DNA of 42,072 nt. It comes from a virus. Positions 28,950 through 40,127 of this stretch are shown piece after piece. A program made the translations under genes and the position numbers. The notes below the pieces were generated by a model. It made no database searches, was not told where the DNA came from, and worked only from the letters and a program-made list of their open reading frames with translations. Every line of letters starts with the position of its first letter. Position 1 is the stretch's first letter. Location of the stretch: the IMG/VR virus record IMGVR_UViG_3300028399_000012, positions 1-42,072 of that record. One strand, given 5' to 3'.

Positions 28950-28970
28950 ATTAAAAAAGGAGATTTGTCT

Positions 28971-29168
28971 ATGAGTCATAAAAAATGTCGTAAAGGAGCA
29001 CAGTTATTAGACAGTTTAATAGATGTCATTTCTGAATCAGTTGATGAAAACGAAAAAACATTGCAGGAAGCATTAGCGGAGGAAGGTTTAAAGTATCATG
29101 AAGTAGTTGAGGGAGGTCTAAAATTCATAAAATCTATCAGACAACAACTAACAAATGACAACAGATAG
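28971..29168 (+). CDS. Small helical protein of unknown function
   Basis: The start at 28971 follows AGGAG by 8 nt. The 65 residues form helices (GAQLLDSLIDVISESVDEN and ETLQEALAEEGLKYHEVVE...). It may be a small DNA- or protein-binding regulator; no match recognised. Confidence 0.5.
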   Translation: MSHKKCRKGAQLLDSLIDVISESVDENEKTLQEALAEEGLKYHEVVEGGLKFIKSIRQQLTNDNR

Positions 29169-29361: not shown

Positions 29362-29402
29362 AGCGGATAAAGTTAATCATCTAACTAAAGAAAGGTATTA
29401 CT

Positions 29403-29662
29403 CGGCGCTCCTGTAGCGAAATTGGCAGACGCTGCAACTCTCTGGAAGTACCTGCCTTGCCGCAGAGAGGGTATACAGTGCAGATGTTGGCGGTCATCCG
29501 AGGTTGTTTACCTATCAGCTCTGGACTGTGCGGGGGAACAGAGAGCCAAGATTATTAAGAATATGGGAAGGGCAACTCCCAGTGACGTTGAATGATTAAT
29601 ATAAAAAACCGCACTTCGTCGCGAAAGCCTGGTTGCGGGTTCGAGTCCCGCCAGGAGCGCCG
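29403..29662 (+). tRNA. tRNA-Leu-like gene interrupted by a structured insert (possible group I-like intron)
   Basis: GCTCCTG (29407-29413) pairs perfectly with CAGGAGC (29652-29658), extended by four flanking pairs to 11. Next come TA, and a D-arm GCG...CGC with AAATTGGCAGA, typical of tRNA-Leu. At the 3' end GCGGG-TTCGAGT-CCCGC (29635-29651) is a standard T-arm adjoining the acceptor. Between them lie about 200 nt instead of about 40. The insert has its own helices (CTCTCTG/CAGAGAG, AGGT/ACCT, GCTCT/AGAGC, GGGA/TCCC). I could not place the anticodon stem or the splice sites, and group I core motifs are not evident. CCA is not encoded. A pseudogene or a novel tRNA-like RNA remain possible. 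Confidence 0.5.
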
Positions 29663-29745
29663 ATTATTTATTCTTTTTAGAAAGGCTGTTGAGGCTGTAA
29701 ACTCGTGGGTTAAGAACTACTTAGAATAGTAAAAGGCGGGTTGAT

Positions 29746-30153
29746 ATGGAAAGGTTCTTATCATCTGTTAAAGAAGTGCGGATTCTGGCTTTATTTCTCG
29801 GGGCAATGTTTTTGTATGCTGCAATACTGGCTGGTGGGTATGGTTTTGGTTTAATTGAGTTAAGTCAGAAGCAGTTTTATTACAGACAGTTCGCTCTCGT
29901 CATTTTCGTGTCGGCTAGTCTTGTTGCGATGATCCTGTTGATCAATGCTTTCGAGCCTGTCCTGGTCAGGTGGCGATCAATGAGTCGTGAAGTGACGGTC
30001 TTGTTTAAATGTGCTGAATGCGGACATGAAGCAATTGATACGGTTAGGGCTCAATTCGACCTGACAGTGTATGGAGAATGGTCTGAAGCATTCTACTGTA
30101 CTAATTGCAGATTACAACATTATCTGAAATTTTATATTGATAAGAGGAGATAA
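29746..30153 (+). CDS. Two-helix membrane protein with C-terminal zinc ribbon
   Basis: The 135 residues have two membrane helices (LALFLGAMFLYAAILAGGYG, and FALVIFVSASLVAMILLI) and then a cytoplasmic zinc ribbon (FKCAECGHEA ... FYCTNCRLQ, residues about 88-122). The combination suggests a membrane-tethered regulator. No family was recognised. Confidence 0.55.
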   Translation: MERFLSSVKEVRILALFLGAMFLYAAILAGGYGFGLIELSQKQFYYRQFALVIFVSASLVAMILLINAFEPVLVRWRSMSREVTVLFKCAECGHEAIDTVRAQFDLTVYGEWSEAFYCTNCRLQHYLKFYIDKRR

Positions 30154-32106: not shown

Positions 32107-32742
32107 ATGATCGCTGATTACAAAGATTCGGGGCATGGAATTTTGAATGTTTCGGTAAAATATCCATCTCTCAGGTATATAAATGAGTTCATCAGATTAA
32201 AATGTGCTACAGACTTATTGGAACTGGAAGTATTCCCCAACGCCAAAGAAATTACAGAATCTTTCGCATCATGGAATGCTGTCAGGAAGCACCTATGGAA
32301 ACGGGGTTTTAGTCCAGATCGAAATTTGAATTGCTATGTGATCGGAGATGGAACAACGCCACGAACCGCTGCATTGGTAGCCTTTGTAAGCAATTTCCAT
32401 GTTTTTTCCATAGACCCAAATTTAAGATGGAAGGAAAAATACCGTAATATAAAGAGGCTTACAATTTGTCAATGCAAAATAGAGGATTACGGCAAGCTTC
32501 CTGATAATTCACTAATTTTGCTGGTTCACAGTCACGCAGATCCAAACAACGTATTGAATGCTCTGAATAAAGAGTGCAGCTACGGCATCGTTGTTATACC
32601 TTGTTGTGTTCCGTATAACTCATTCGATAAAGAAGATAGATTAACCAAAATTGCCGATTACGAAGATTGGGGGATTCATTCTCCAGAGAGAAAAGTTAAA
32701 GTTTATGTTCATTACGGTTCTAAACGAAGTATAGCGTCATGA
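32107..32742 (+). CDS. Rossmann-fold, methyltransferase-like protein
   Basis: The 211-residue protein has CYVIGDGTTPRTAALVAF followed by FHVFSIDPNL (residues about 77-102), a motif like the SAM-binding loop of methyltransferases, and LILLVHSHAD and IVVIPCCVPYN in the second half. Catalytic residues are not clear. The stop overlaps the next gene's ATG (ATGA). It may act on RNA or a small substrate; that is inference. Confidence 0.5.
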   Translation: MIADYKDSGHGILNVSVKYPSLRYINEFIRLKCATDLLELEVFPNAKEITESFASWNAVRKHLWKRGFSPDRNLNCYVIGDGTTPRTAALVAFVSNFHVFSIDPNLRWKEKYRNIKRLTICQCKIEDYGKLPDNSLILLVHSHADPNNVLNALNKECSYGIVVIPCCVPYNSFDKEDRLTKIADYEDWGIHSPERKVKVYVHYGSKRSIAS

Positions 32743-33356
32743 GACAGCAGAAAAGAATTACTAAGAAACGTATAATTGAATTTCTTGAAATGATTGGAAA
32801 AAAAGAGAAGCGTAAGTTTAAAAGGGAAACCTACGTCGTTTGGGCCAGCAAGGTTGACGGTAGCTATATTTGCTCCGATGACTTCTCAGTAAAAGATTTT
32901 TACTGGGTTCCAAGGATGTTATTAAAACTCGGAATAACGGAGCAAATCCAGAACTCAAAAAACGACCCGAACAGAGCTGCAAATATTGGTTTTAATCCTC
33001 AAGAACAAAAATGGTATGGATGGTCGTATCGGTCAATGTCATACGGTTTTGGTGTGGGTTCTAAAGTACGCAGAGGAGACATTGCTTATAAACCCACTGA
33101 TCCAGATGACTTTGCAAGAGACGTAGTCGAGTTCTGGAAGGAACCTTTTAAAGACAATGTCAGAGCGGTTATTGAAAAGGACGGTGTTAAGATAGAATGG
33201 GAGTATAACAAAAGACACAAAAACAAGGAACTAATTGGAAAGACAGGTTCAGTTTTCCACCATTTTCCTGAACATTGGGGGCGTGGCGAATGGGAAGCCA
33301 AAACGCTTGAAGACGCAAAACAGATGGCAATTGATTTTGCAGAGAATGTGAGCTGA
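32739..33356 (+). CDS. Conserved phage protein of unknown function
   Basis: The 205 residues contain IGFNPQEQKWYGWSYRSMSYGFGVGSK in two steps, then RRGDIAYKPTDPDDFARDVVEFW, and the C-terminal AKTLEDAKQMAIDFAENV, a pattern I recall from many uncharacterised phage proteins. The N-terminus is basic. It is coupled by ATGA to the Rossmann-fold gene, suggesting a shared role. Confidence 0.52.
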   Translation: MRQQKRITKKRIIEFLEMIGKKEKRKFKRETYVVWASKVDGSYICSDDFSVKDFYWVPRMLLKLGITEQIQNSKNDPNRAANIGFNPQEQKWYGWSYRSMSYGFGVGSKVRRGDIAYKPTDPDDFARDVVEFWKEPFKDNVRAVIEKDGVKIEWEYNKRHKNKELIGKTGSVFHHFPEHWGRGEWEAKTLEDAKQMAIDFAENVS

Positions 33357-35502: not shown

Positions 35503-36363
35503 ATGAAAACAATGCATCTCTTCTCTGGTGCTGGCGGCGGTCTTTTGACTGATTTAATTCTCGGACACGATCCAGTTGTGGCGGTAGAAATTGATAAATT
35601 TTGCTGTGATGTTCTAAAAAAAAGGAAAGAAGATGGCTGGTTTCCAAATCTGCATGTGTGGGAAGGAAACATCCAAATGTTCGACCCATCCCAATGGCAA
35701 GGAAAAGTGGATTGTATTCATGCAGGGTGGCCTTGCCAGGATATTAGTGTTGCTGGGTCAGGAAAAGGTATTCAAGGAGAAAGAAGTGGATTGTGGAAAG
35801 AAGTTGTCCGCATTGCTGGCATTATTCGACCACAATACTTGTTCTTGGAAAACAGCCCAGCAATCACTTATAGAGGACTCAATGTTGTTATTACGGACCT
35901 TGCCAGGTTGGGGTATGATGCAGTCTGGGCGGTTATACCAGCTTCCGCAGTTGGTGCGCCACACAGACGTGACAGATGGTGGTGTCTTGCAAAAGCGGCC
36001 GACTCCAAATGCGAGGGATTACAAGGGACAACCAAGAAAGGGAACACGCAGCCGTGGTGGGCGCCGTTCATCCTTACTGGCAGCAGTGAGATATTGGCCA
36101 ACGCCGACAGCGTCGATGCATCACGGTTGGCATCCGAACATGAAAAGAGCTTCGACAGACGACCGATTGGATTATACAATAGAGCGGGAGGCATATCAGA
36201 ATTCAACTGGTGGAAGATTGAATCCAACGTGGGTAGAGTGGCTCATGGGGTGGCCAATAGAGTGGACAGAATTAAAGCGTTAGGTAATGGGTGGGTACCT
36301 TTACAAGCTGCTTTGGCGTTTGTATTGCTTTACAAATTGATTAATTCTGCCCACGAAGAATAA
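35503..36363 (+). CDS. C5-cytosine DNA methyltransferase
   Basis: The 286-residue enzyme has the ordered motifs of this family: LFSGAGGG (residues 6-13, SAM), HAGWPCQDIS (73-82, catalytic Cys78), LENSP (115-119), PHRRDRWW (153-160) and, at the C-terminus, VGRVAHGVANRVDRIKALGNG (about 244-264, motif IX-X). It transfers methyl groups to cytosine in DNA, protecting phage DNA or modifying host expression. The target-recognition region is short. No restriction enzyme is adjacent. A second protein-like frame overlaps residues about 107-260 (see next entry). Confidence 0.85.
   Translation: MKTMHLFSGAGGGLLTDLILGHDPVVAVEIDKFCCDVLKKRKEDGWFPNLHVWEGNIQMFDPSQWQGKVDCIHAGWPCQDISVAGSGKGIQGERSGLWKEVVRIAGIIRPQYLFLENSPAITYRGLNVVITDLARLGYDAVWAVIPASAVGAPHRRDRWWCLAKAADSKCEGLQGTTKKGNTQPWWAPFILTGSSEILANADSVDASRLASEHEKSFDRRPIGLYNRAGGISEFNWWKIESNVGRVAHGVANRVDRIKALGNGWVPLQAALAFVLLYKLINSAHEE
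35633..36283 (+). CDS. Overlapping +1-frame protein inside methyltransferase gene
   Basis: A 216-codon frame runs without stop inside the methyltransferase. From codon about 64 it reads CSWKTAQQSLIED, LPGWGMMQSGRLYQLP, PTPNARDYKGQP, YWPTPTA and GGRLNPTWVEWLMGWP, a set of motifs that I recall from phage proteins annotated as methyltransferase-associated. An AGGAAAGAAG site precedes ATG 35633. The first 60 codons look unspecific. Whether it is translated separately, by frameshift, or not at all is open. Confidence 0.45.
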   Translation: MAGFQICMCGKETSKCSTHPNGKEKWIVFMQGGLARILVLLGQEKVFKEKEVDCGKKLSALLALFDHNTCSWKTAQQSLIEDSMLLLRTLPGWGMMQSGRLYQLPQLVRHTDVTDGGVLQKRPTPNARDYKGQPRKGTRSRGGRRSSLLAAVRYWPTPTASMHHGWHPNMKRASTDDRLDYTIEREAYQNSTGGRLNPTWVEWLMGWPIEWTELKR

Positions 36364-36420
36364 AATACCTCTCTGAGTTTGGGATCAGATAAAATAAAAA
36401 AACTGGAAAAGCAAGATGAG

Positions 36421-36768
36421 ATGAAACTTTGCTATGTAACGGAGTGTCTAGCTTATTTTACTAGTCTTCCTCTGGAAAATCAGTGGGGAGACGATTGGGA
36501 TGACGTGCCGTATGAGTATAACGCCGGTCCTCCTTATCACGACGAAGGCTCCAATACAATTAAAATTATGGCGTACATGGGTGATTTTCTCTTGCCTTGT
36601 TCCGGTTATATTAACAGCCCCTACAGCGTGGAAGATATTAATAAAGGTAAAGTTCCGTGGTTGAGAACTTTTCTGGATAATTTTGATTTTCTTCTTGCCG
36701 GAGCAACTGTTGATGAATTTATTGATTTTGTAAAACGGAATGGCGGCCGTATCTTTAAAGAAATATGA
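36421..36768 (+). CDS. Conserved-looking small phage protein
   Basis: The start is at 36421 (MKLCYVTE), preceded by GATGAG. The 115 residues contain WGDDWDDVPYEYNAGPPY and later NSPYSVEDINKGKVPWL, a pattern seen in many uncharacterised phage proteins. Function unknown. Confidence 0.55.
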   Translation: MKLCYVTECLAYFTSLPLENQWGDDWDDVPYEYNAGPPYHDEGSNTIKIMAYMGDFLLPCSGYINSPYSVEDINKGKVPWLRTFLDNFDFLLAGATVDEFIDFVKRNGGRIFKEI

Positions 36769-36823
36769 ATAACAGGATCAGCTATTAAAATCAAGCAGAA
36801 CAACAAAACAACGGAGGAATACA

Positions 36824-37897
36824 ATGATTACCAGGCTATATCCTATTCCGACGGGATTTTTGTTTGTCGGCGAATATTCAAAGGGCGAATTAGAGACTCT
36901 ATCTATCGGTGATTACGGAAAACAGAAGAACATAAAAGCTGATTTTCTTGGTTACAGAAAAGAAATTAACGGGGTTGAGAACGGTTGGTGTATGCCTCTT
37001 TCTGAAAAATGGGTTATCACGGTAAGTACACAGTACGGATGCCCGATGAAGTGTAATTTTTGCGATGTGCCTAATGTCAATTTTAAAGGAAATGCCACTT
37101 TCGACGATTTACGCCGGCAGTTTTATAATGCTATTAGTTTATTTCCGAGTGTAAAGTATACAGATCGTTTGAATCTTCACTATGCAAGAATGGGAGAACC
37201 TATATTTAACCGTAATGTCTTTGATTTTAGTATCTGGCTCCGTAAAAACAAAAGACAGATACAAAATGAAACTGGTCTGCGAATTGAAGTGCTTCATCCT
37301 GTTCTTACAACTTCTCTACCGAGAAAGTTTAAAGAGCTGGAAGATCGTATTATAGAATGGTGCGAGATAAAAAACAACTTGTATTGCGGTCAGGCGGGGC
37401 TTCAGTTTTCTATAAATTCAACAGATGAAAAACAGCGTACTGTAATGTTTGGGGATCAGCAGTTGCATCTTGAGGATCTGTCAGAAATCGCAGAGAAAAT
37501 GCCTGAACCTCTGGGAAGGAAATACTGCTTGAACTTCGCCTATTCAACAGATTTCAAAATTGATGCCAGGAGGCTATCCAGTCTTTTCGACCATAATAAG
37601 TTCATGGTAAAGATTACGCCTATTCACAACAACAATGCTTGCAGAGCCAATAACATAAAAACAGAAAAAGGTTATGAGAGTTATCAACCCTACCGGCGTG
37701 TGGAAGAAGATCTCAAAGAAGAGGGTTTTGATGTTATTGTTTTTGTCCCTTCGATAGACGAAGAAAAAGGGCTGGTAACATGCGGTAATGCTGTACTCGG
37801 AGGAAGTACTTTACAAATAGATACATCAATCATCAAAATAAGAGGAATCGACAATGACTCTCTTGGTGTATCCAGGCAGATTCCAACCACCGCATAA
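36824..37897 (+). CDS. Radical SAM enzyme, RlmN/Cfr-like
   Basis: The 357-residue protein has the radical SAM cysteine motif C73-PMK-C77-NF-C80, the SAM-binding MGEPIFN (residues 123-129) and a C-terminal VTCGNAV (Cys320) where RlmN/Cfr proteins carry their methylene-bridge cysteine (ACGQL). The family methylates C2 or C8 of adenine in 23S rRNA or tRNA. The usual N-terminal domain is reduced. GGAGG precedes ATG. The gene overlaps the nucleotidyltransferase gene by 44 bp. The substrate in phage is unknown. Confidence 0.75.
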   Translation: MITRLYPIPTGFLFVGEYSKGELETLSIGDYGKQKNIKADFLGYRKEINGVENGWCMPLSEKWVITVSTQYGCPMKCNFCDVPNVNFKGNATFDDLRRQFYNAISLFPSVKYTDRLNLHYARMGEPIFNRNVFDFSIWLRKNKRQIQNETGLRIEVLHPVLTTSLPRKFKELEDRIIEWCEIKNNLYCGQAGLQFSINSTDEKQRTVMFGDQQLHLEDLSEIAEKMPEPLGRKYCLNFAYSTDFKIDARRLSSLFDHNKFMVKITPIHNNNACRANNIKTEKGYESYQPYRRVEEDLKEEGFDVIVFVPSIDEEKGLVTCGNAVLGGSTLQIDTSIIKIRGIDNDSLGVSRQIPTTA

Positions 37898-38309
37898 AGG
37901 CCATTTTAAAGCTATTAAAACCTGCCTGGAGAAGTTTCCTGACGCAAAGATAATTGTATCCATAGACGTAAGAAAAAAAGACGAAAACAATCCATTTACT
38001 CTTGAGTTTAGAAGGGCTATATTTGAAAAATATTTATCCGATTTCATTGATTGCGGCCGTGTCGTAATTAGCTGTCATCGCTGTAATGAACTATCAGTAA
38101 ACGGATGCTTAACAGCAATTAAAGACTGTTATCCTATTGCCGATGGTATAATCGCAGGAAAAGATAGGGCTCCTTTATTCAGAAACTTCGGCTTTAACGT
38201 TATAGAAATACCAGAAAGATACTATAATTTGTCATCATCCAAAATCAGAGAAAAGATAAAAAACAAGAACAAGATAACTACTGATTTATACCAATCCTTT
38301 TGCTGCTAA
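37854..38309 (+). CDS. NMN adenylyltransferase-like nucleotidyltransferase
   Basis: The 151-residue enzyme has GRFQPPHKGHF (residues 8-18, HxGH) and SSSKIRE (127-133, ISSTxIR-like), the two signatures of the cytidylyltransferase superfamily, and length and layout close to NadM-type NMNAT. It would make NAD from NMN and ATP. It overlaps the radical SAM gene and has its own AGAGGAA site. No nicotinamide phosphoribosyltransferase is adjacent, so the pathway is not complete here. Confidence 0.72.
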   Translation: MTLLVYPGRFQPPHKGHFKAIKTCLEKFPDAKIIVSIDVRKKDENNPFTLEFRRAIFEKYLSDFIDCGRVVISCHRCNELSVNGCLTAIKDCYPIADGIIAGKDRAPLFRNFGFNVIEIPERYYNLSSSKIREKIKNKNKITTDLYQSFCC

Positions 38310-39764: not shown

Positions 39765-40127
39765 ATGAGTTTAAATGAACGCAGAGCAAAGTTCGTTTAC
39801 GAGGGTGCAAGGTTGCATGCAATCCAGTTAGAATGTCCAGTTATCCCAAAGTCGTGGGAGGAACGTGAAGAAGATTTCAAAGAACAATTTAGAGAATTAA
39901 TATTTGATTTATGCTCTGGTAAAAAGGAATTCCAGGATTTCGAAGAAGCGCACAACTCGTGGATGAGAAAGTATTTTGAAATGGGCTGGATTCATGGTGA
40001 AAAGTATGATCCGGAAAATAGAATACACCCGGATTTAGTGCCATACAATGAGCTTGATCCAAAGGAAAAAGTCAAAGATGAGGTCTTTGTTAGATTAGTT
40101 GAGATCGCGAGAGACTGCATTTGGTAG
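39765..40127 (+). CDS. RyR-domain protein
   Basis: The 120 residues contain the RyR-domain pattern: ARLHAIQL, PVIPKSWEER, then HNSWMRKYFEMGWIHGEKYDPENRIHPDL and VPYNELDPKEKVKDEVF. Such small proteins are common in phages and in Bacteroides, where their ligand may be nucleotide-like. GAAGGAG precedes ATG. Role here unknown. Confidence 0.75.
   Translation: MSLNERRAKFVYEGARLHAIQLECPVIPKSWEEREEDFKEQFRELIFDLCSGKKEFQDFEEAHNSWMRKYFEMGWIHGEKYDPENRIHPDLVPYNELDPKEKVKDEVFVRLVEIARDCIW

Follow-up and report, generated by a model that had tools for sequence, protein, structure and literature searches.

The window, a 42,072-nucleotide phage contig, carries on its plus strand at 29402-29663 a tRNA-like element with an acceptor stem, a Leu-type D-arm and a perfect T-arm, the last following the D-arm after 202 nt. 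We predict that the element specifies a non-decoding, tRNA-shaped phage RNA, perhaps used as a decoy, a reading that we hold with about even confidence. The preliminary description had offered a tRNA-like RNA with another job as one of its possibilities; we now favour it, and it gains context from many viral tRNA shells that lack a canonical anticodon arm.

Architecture and setting of the element

The terminal stem, formed by 29402-29413 and 29652-29663, comprises 12 bp, of which seven are the canonical acceptor pairs (GCTCCTG at 29407-29413 against CAGGAGC at 29652-29658, 7/7 paired) and five are additional Watson-Crick pairs. The preliminary description had recognized this extension but counted four extra pairs and an 11-bp acceptor. 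Five extra pairs are the largest extension among the 258 unique-insert shells of the pooled set described below. The D-arm (GCG-AAATTGGCAGA-CGC, 29416-29432) and the T-stem and T-loop (GCGGG-TTCGAGT-CCCGC) are without defect. Since all three parts named earlier, the acceptor, the Leu-type D-arm and the T-arm, could be located, and the pattern combining them was matched once in the window and in 0 of 100 shuffles, this portion of the preliminary description stands, as does its spacing of about 200 nt between the D- and T-arms. The features are as follows.

29385..29401 with 29664-29680 (+): A+T-rich, imperfect extension of the terminal inverted repeat
29402..29413 (+): terminal stem, 5' strand; 29407-29413 GCTCCTG acceptor, 29402-29406 extra pairs
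29414..29415 (+): TA linker at tRNA positions 8-9; TG in 111 of the 112 canonical-arm shells of the pooled set
29416..29432 (+): Leu-type D-arm, GCGAAATTGGCAGACGC
29433..29634 (+): 202-nt insert replacing the anticodon arm and variable region
29438..29545 (+): predicted branched arm closed by CTCTCTG/CAGAGAG (29438-29444 with 29539-29545; z -2.18)
29550..29597 (+): predicted weak hairpin (z -1.40 for 29548-29600)
29607..29634 (+): predicted weak, variable-arm-like hairpin abutting the 5' side of the T-stem (z 0.40 for 29605-29636)
29635..29651 (+): T-arm, GCGGG-TTCGAGT-CCCGC
29652..29663 (+): terminal stem, 3' strand; CAGGAGC at 29652-29658, then discriminator G at 29659

CCA is not encoded, CAGGAGC being followed by GCCGA. 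The whole terminal inverted repeat spans 29 nt with 76% complementarity, and its A+T-rich extension may be due to chance.

Over its full length, the insert folds with no greater stability than its shuffles (z -0.04, 230/500 as good), whereas the part at 29438-29545 is marginally more stable (5/200 shuffles as good), so the earlier term "structured insert" applies, marginally, to this part and not to the whole. For the complete RNA, to which the shell contributes, the z-score is -2.50, with one of 200 shuffles as good. A branched arm at the place of the anticodon arm, followed by a weak hairpin and by another resembling a variable arm, makes a plausible though unproven fold; CTCTCTG (29438-29444) could alternatively pair with CAGAGAG at 29464-29470. 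An a-b-a'-b' arrangement can also be drawn, in which CTCTCTG is followed by GAAGT (29445-29449) pairing with ACTTC (29613-29617), but these 5 bp could be chance and we do not claim them as evidence of a pseudoknot.

The window is recognizable as a phage contig by portal, major head and terminase families on the minus strand, with small plus-strand genes from about 25.6 kb. It is one of the 240 contigs of a 2.65-Mb genome that is 67% complete. The host probably belongs to the Gammaproteobacteria, judging from sequences, in genomes of the same class, that we take to be uptake signals of the Pasteurellaceae type. The element lies between the ORFs at 28965-29168 and 29746-30153, on the same strand as its neighbours; the only other plus-strand ORFs upstream of it or inside its stretch are short (53 and 57 aa), and no promoter-like site was found near it on the plus strand. 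At 32739-33356 (+), 3.1 kb downstream of the element, there is a homologue of the Thoeris inhibitor Tad6 (PF25188, E 2.8e-33), a probable counter-defence gene. Searches with the terminase (including E<=1e-60 in 369 genomes) and with the portal returned no phage relatives.

Searches with the element in phages, plasmids and 95 relatives matched only pieces of the T-arm or D-arm, and further pattern searches gave no matches. The insert alone gave three weak matches among 398 genomes of the phylum. We rejected these as homologues; they sit in ordinary DNA without tRNAs, and two of them centre on the 9-mer ACCGCACTT, which we take to be the Pasteurellaceae uptake signal. The copy of ACCGCACTT in the window, at 29608-29616, is the complement of what is presumably that signal, and one copy per 42 kb fits chance. 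A protein reading was likewise without match, in PHROG for six of the 12 stop-to-stop frames and by tblastn for one frame; a single Pfam match among the six (E 0.11) was dismissed as chance. Because the window RNA is a single sequence without homologue in these searches, it offers no covariation of its own.

Comparison with known RNA families

No tRNA was found in the window by ARAGORN, and Rfam reported nothing over the window at the gathering cut-off. Within the 202-nt insert, no canonical anticodon arm (5 bp and a 7-nt loop) following the D-arm could be assigned. In intron mode, ARAGORN proposes a tRNA-Glu(ctc) whose stem is mismatched, but shuffled inserts placed in the same shell also yield an "intron tRNA" in 192 of 200 cases, and the proposal is therefore uninformative. 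The earlier failure to find a normal anticodon stem thus agrees with our results.

Group I introns of tRNAs occupy the anticodon arm and measure near 200 nt, and the insert resembles them in both respects; as in a tRNA-Leu with such an intron, it lies near the anticodon of a Leu-like tRNA and has a similar length. This likeness might suggest a tRNA interrupted by a group I intron, or by a small kind of intron not yet known, whose excision would yield a working tRNA. However, no match to a group I intron was obtained over the element at E<=10 in Rfam, in keeping with the earlier remark that core motifs are not evident, and the group I model RF00028 found nothing in the window's own genome while being positive in 4 of 14 control genomes. 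No splice junction restored a tRNA better than in shuffled inserts, which this test does not separate from the real insert, and the junction chosen by ARAGORN leaves the mismatched stem already mentioned. We consider an intron improbable, and the "minimal intron" of the preliminary description is not supported.

The plan of the element is also that of tmRNA (SsrA), in which a large domain takes the place of the anticodon arm of a tRNA domain, and the only tRNA-clan match listed by Rfam over the element at E<=10 is the tmRNA model, which covers 17 positions of the T-loop region (E 0.0086). A reduced tmRNA-like RNA that carries a reading frame for a tag is nevertheless the least credible of the alternatives considered here, and very improbable: the match is limited to the T-loop, the element has a normal D-stem, no tag frame was found, and tmRNA was detected neither by ARAGORN in default mode nor by Rfam at gathering. 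With a lowered threshold, ARAGORN returned only a permuted tmRNA candidate on the minus strand, for which no tag was identified. Y RNA-like RNAs (YrlA) carry tRNA-like arms in a non-decoding RNA, a plan that the window RNA would share, but its score with the YrlA model (RF02553) is 17.6 bits against a cut-off of 69, and we rejected this identity.

The label tRNA-Leu given in the preliminary description holds for the D-arm, which is Leu-like, but is weakened by the remainder. The discriminator is G, the linker before the D-stem is TA instead of TG, and the 3' half has its best match in tRNA-Arg(tct), found in 4 of the 95 relatives; these features make a Leu identity, judged by sequence, doubtful. 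The single host tRNA-Leu seen, tRNA-Leu(caa), has TG at positions 8-9 and A73. According to one review, leucine identity in Escherichia coli requires A73 and neither the anticodon nor the variable arm, G73 in tRNA-Ser acts as an antideterminant against LeuRS, and the anticodon arm, required for editing, is dispensable for charging (PMC9976931). With G at the position where tRNA-Leu has A73, the window RNA is predicted to accept leucine poorly.

Viral tRNA-Leu-like shells without a canonical anticodon arm

A pattern of a Leu-type D-arm followed by a T-arm 190-220 nt later matched at least 120 viral contigs. Among the matches listed, 37 of 145 shells, the window included, fail a test for the anticodon arm (at least four of five pairs and T at loop position 2), most being canonical, and many of the failing shells have the acceptor AGTCAGG in common. 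When the AGTCAGG shell was searched with 40-70 nt between the arms, 109 viral contigs were found, and a script extracted 163 shells of this kind from 117 of 226 loci, with 124 different inserts, four of them canonical. The D half is identical in 116 and the T half in 121 of the 161 shells starting with AGTCA. The main viral set thus has a near-constant shell, AGTCAGG...CCTGACT, with variable and often pseudoknotted inserts; its carriers are the viral contigs L168-L273, L008, L028, L032, L052, L083, L084 and L110. A locus may hold up to five different shell copies, and in loci with three or more the insert sequence varies between copies. More than half of the non-canonical shells (102/180) have a predicted tRNA no more than 1 kb away, in all 102 cases encoded on the strand of the shell.

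In the pooled set, 146 of 258 unique-insert shells, the window included, fail the test, a proportion that is not a frequency because the loci were fetched with patterns, several of which favour long inserts. The test is simple and passes some odd RNAs as canonical, for example L278, with a 4-of-5 stem, and L283 and its like. The latter (L283, L285, L286, L291, L292, L295, L298, L299 and L300) have a regular anticodon arm with the loop CTGTCTC or TTGTCTC and 91-100 nt from D- to T-arm, that is, a very long variable region. The median insert of the 146 non-canonical shells is 57 nt; 11 exceed 100 nt, some of these being tandem artefacts, and those above 200 nt include two shells in tandem (L110, L250). 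The discriminator is G in 18 of the 146 and in 5 of the 112 canonical shells. Contigs L026 (8714-8859) and L072 share another tRNA-Leu-like shell, in which the Rfam tRNA alignment places 68 nt inside the anticodon loop; this insert may be a small intron whose flanks, by eye, could join to a CTTAAAA loop.

The inserts of the AGTCAGG set were analysed for pseudoknots on 97 non-redundant sequences, derived from 113 unique AGTCA inserts of 39-85 nt. The pseudoknot score was reached by 38 of the 97, whereas over 20 rounds of shuffling the count averaged 7.85 and never exceeded 12. Four alignments (A1-A4) were examined, all of them small and with structures deduced from the very sequences that they contain; in these structures each cell is paired. 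The helix with its 3' strand abutting the T-stem has two pairs changed on both sides in A1, four in A2, two in A3 and none in A4, where two-sided changes occur in two inner helices. Shuffle control (a) reaches the observed value in 21, 43, 55 and 121 of 500 cases for A1 to A4, respectively, so that no single alignment is strong by itself; the slid controls give clearly lower values. The pseudoknot excess, together with two-sided helix changes in three of the four alignments, suggests that viral tRNA shells devoid of an anticodon can be RNAs that are maintained. L205 (AGTCAGG, D-arm start 2098) and L276 (AGCAAGG, D-arm start 1640) have related inserts behind different acceptors, as if cargo had moved between shells.

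No phage record covers 80% of one AGTCAGG-type RNA, the best among the matches listed covering 32%; a protein of one carrier contig is closest to a DUF932 protein of Flavobacterium phages (43% identity). In a limited search of open papers we found no description of phage tRNA shells with a replaced anticodon arm, and a term search of a review of non-canonical tRNAs (PMC7609411) gave neither "phage" nor "pseudoknot".

The window RNA shares with the AGTCAGG set its plan, a tRNA shell whose D-arm is of the Leu type and which lacks a canonical anticodon arm. It differs in having GCTCCTG/CAGGAGC in place of AGTCAGG/CCTGACT and a G where the set mostly has an A discriminator, in being a single copy whereas the others sometimes occur in several copies and often near tRNA genes, and in its 202-nt insert, most of theirs being 40-70 nt. 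The pseudoknot helix abutting the T-stem, common but not universal in the set, was sought in the window insert and not found; the best 3'-end helix there scores 11 and is equalled in 264 of 300 shuffles. Since the plan is shared but the acceptor and pseudoknot differ, membership in the set by descent is unproven. Seven viral contigs have TA preceding a Leu-type D-arm; six fail the canonical test, one of them (L279) with an unpaired acceptor (2/7), and the seventh has a 4-of-5 stem. In the pooled set, TA occurs in 1 of 112 canonical and 5 of 146 non-canonical shells and, being rare in both groups, is only a hint. The exact D-arm of the window, with about 56-116 nt between the arms, was found in 22 contigs, among which L288, L290, L293 and L294 are non-canonical shells with other acceptors.

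Possible function and the case for a dead gene

As a non-decoding RNA, the element would be transcribed together with the neighbouring small plus-strand genes, and its ends would fold into a tRNA elbow made of the acceptor, D-arm and T-arm. The elbow could provide stability and access to tRNA-handling proteins, while the 202-nt replacement would expose a different RNA domain. Such an RNA should not decode codons; its action might lie in the domain that takes the place of the arm or in keeping a host protein that binds tRNA occupied, and it would work on the same plan as many viral anticodon-less tRNA-Leu shells. The likeliest use would be as a decoy or regulatory RNA in infection, for example against a tRNA-binding defence enzyme. 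This reading is favoured by the complete shell with its 12-bp stem, unique in the window, by the negative results of ARAGORN and Rfam for tRNA, group I intron and tmRNA, and by the position on the same strand among small ORFs with a Tad6 homologue downstream. The viral precedent, that is, the non-canonical shells of the pooled set and the six TA contigs, points in the same direction. Against it stand the lack of any homologue in the searches made, the stability of the whole insert, which is no greater than that of shuffles, the mismatch to the AGTCAGG type in pseudoknot, acceptor and discriminator, and the lack of a promoter-like site on the plus strand. The positions at which CCA would start are, moreover, base-paired within the 12-bp stem, an arrangement expected to interfere with the usual maturation of tRNA ends.

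The main rival is a dead or chimeric tRNA gene without function, arisen by a 202-nt interruption or by the joining of Leu-like 5' and Arg-like 3' halves. The combination of a Leu-like D-arm with a 3' half closest to tRNA-Arg(tct) fits a chimera, and an insert no more stable than shuffles and without homologue in the phages, plasmids and 398 phylum genomes searched, in a gene that does not encode CCA, is also consistent with loss of function. However, unless it arose recently, a decaying gene should have lost some of its pairing, whereas the seven acceptor pairs, the D-arm, the T-stem and the T-loop are all intact and five further pairs lengthen the stem. Non-canonical shells moreover recur in viral contigs, and we regard a dead gene as rather unlikely.

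A bolder version of the non-decoding reading, which we put forward tentatively, is that the window RNA might be a long member of an unrecognised and diverse viral class in which a tRNA-Leu shell carries variable structured cargo replacing the anticodon domain. The shell would be the invariant part, a handle for tRNA processing or for a protein that binds tRNA, and its cargo would differ between copies within a genome, as expected for decoys or antitoxin-like RNAs directed against varied host defences. Phage tRNAs with altered anticodon loops have been proposed to evade host anticodon nucleases (PMC10264068). Like these, the window RNA is a tRNA-shaped phage RNA that would escape anticodon cleavage, but theirs are loop mutations, whereas here the anticodon arm itself is missing. 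RNA mimicry by a phage has a reported precedent in pseudo-ToxI (PMC3475682).

The carriage of tRNA genes by phages is an old question, and tRNA-like non-decoding RNAs would separate tRNA shape from codon reading, allowing a direct test of decoy models. Because leucine identity in E. coli needs A73 and not the anticodon (PMC9976931), members of the viral set with A73 could be charged and yet not decode; leucine charging is not expected for the window RNA with its G73.

Elsewhere in the window, genes for a DNA methyltransferase, cytidylyltransferase-like and RyR-domain proteins lie close together at 35503-38309 and 39765-40127 (+), together with that for a PHROG 24834 protein, which has a weak radical SAM match (E 0.002). 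An exact 99-bp direct repeat occupies 1-99 and 915-1013, one copy at the very end of the contig, and could be an assembly edge or a duplicated gene start.
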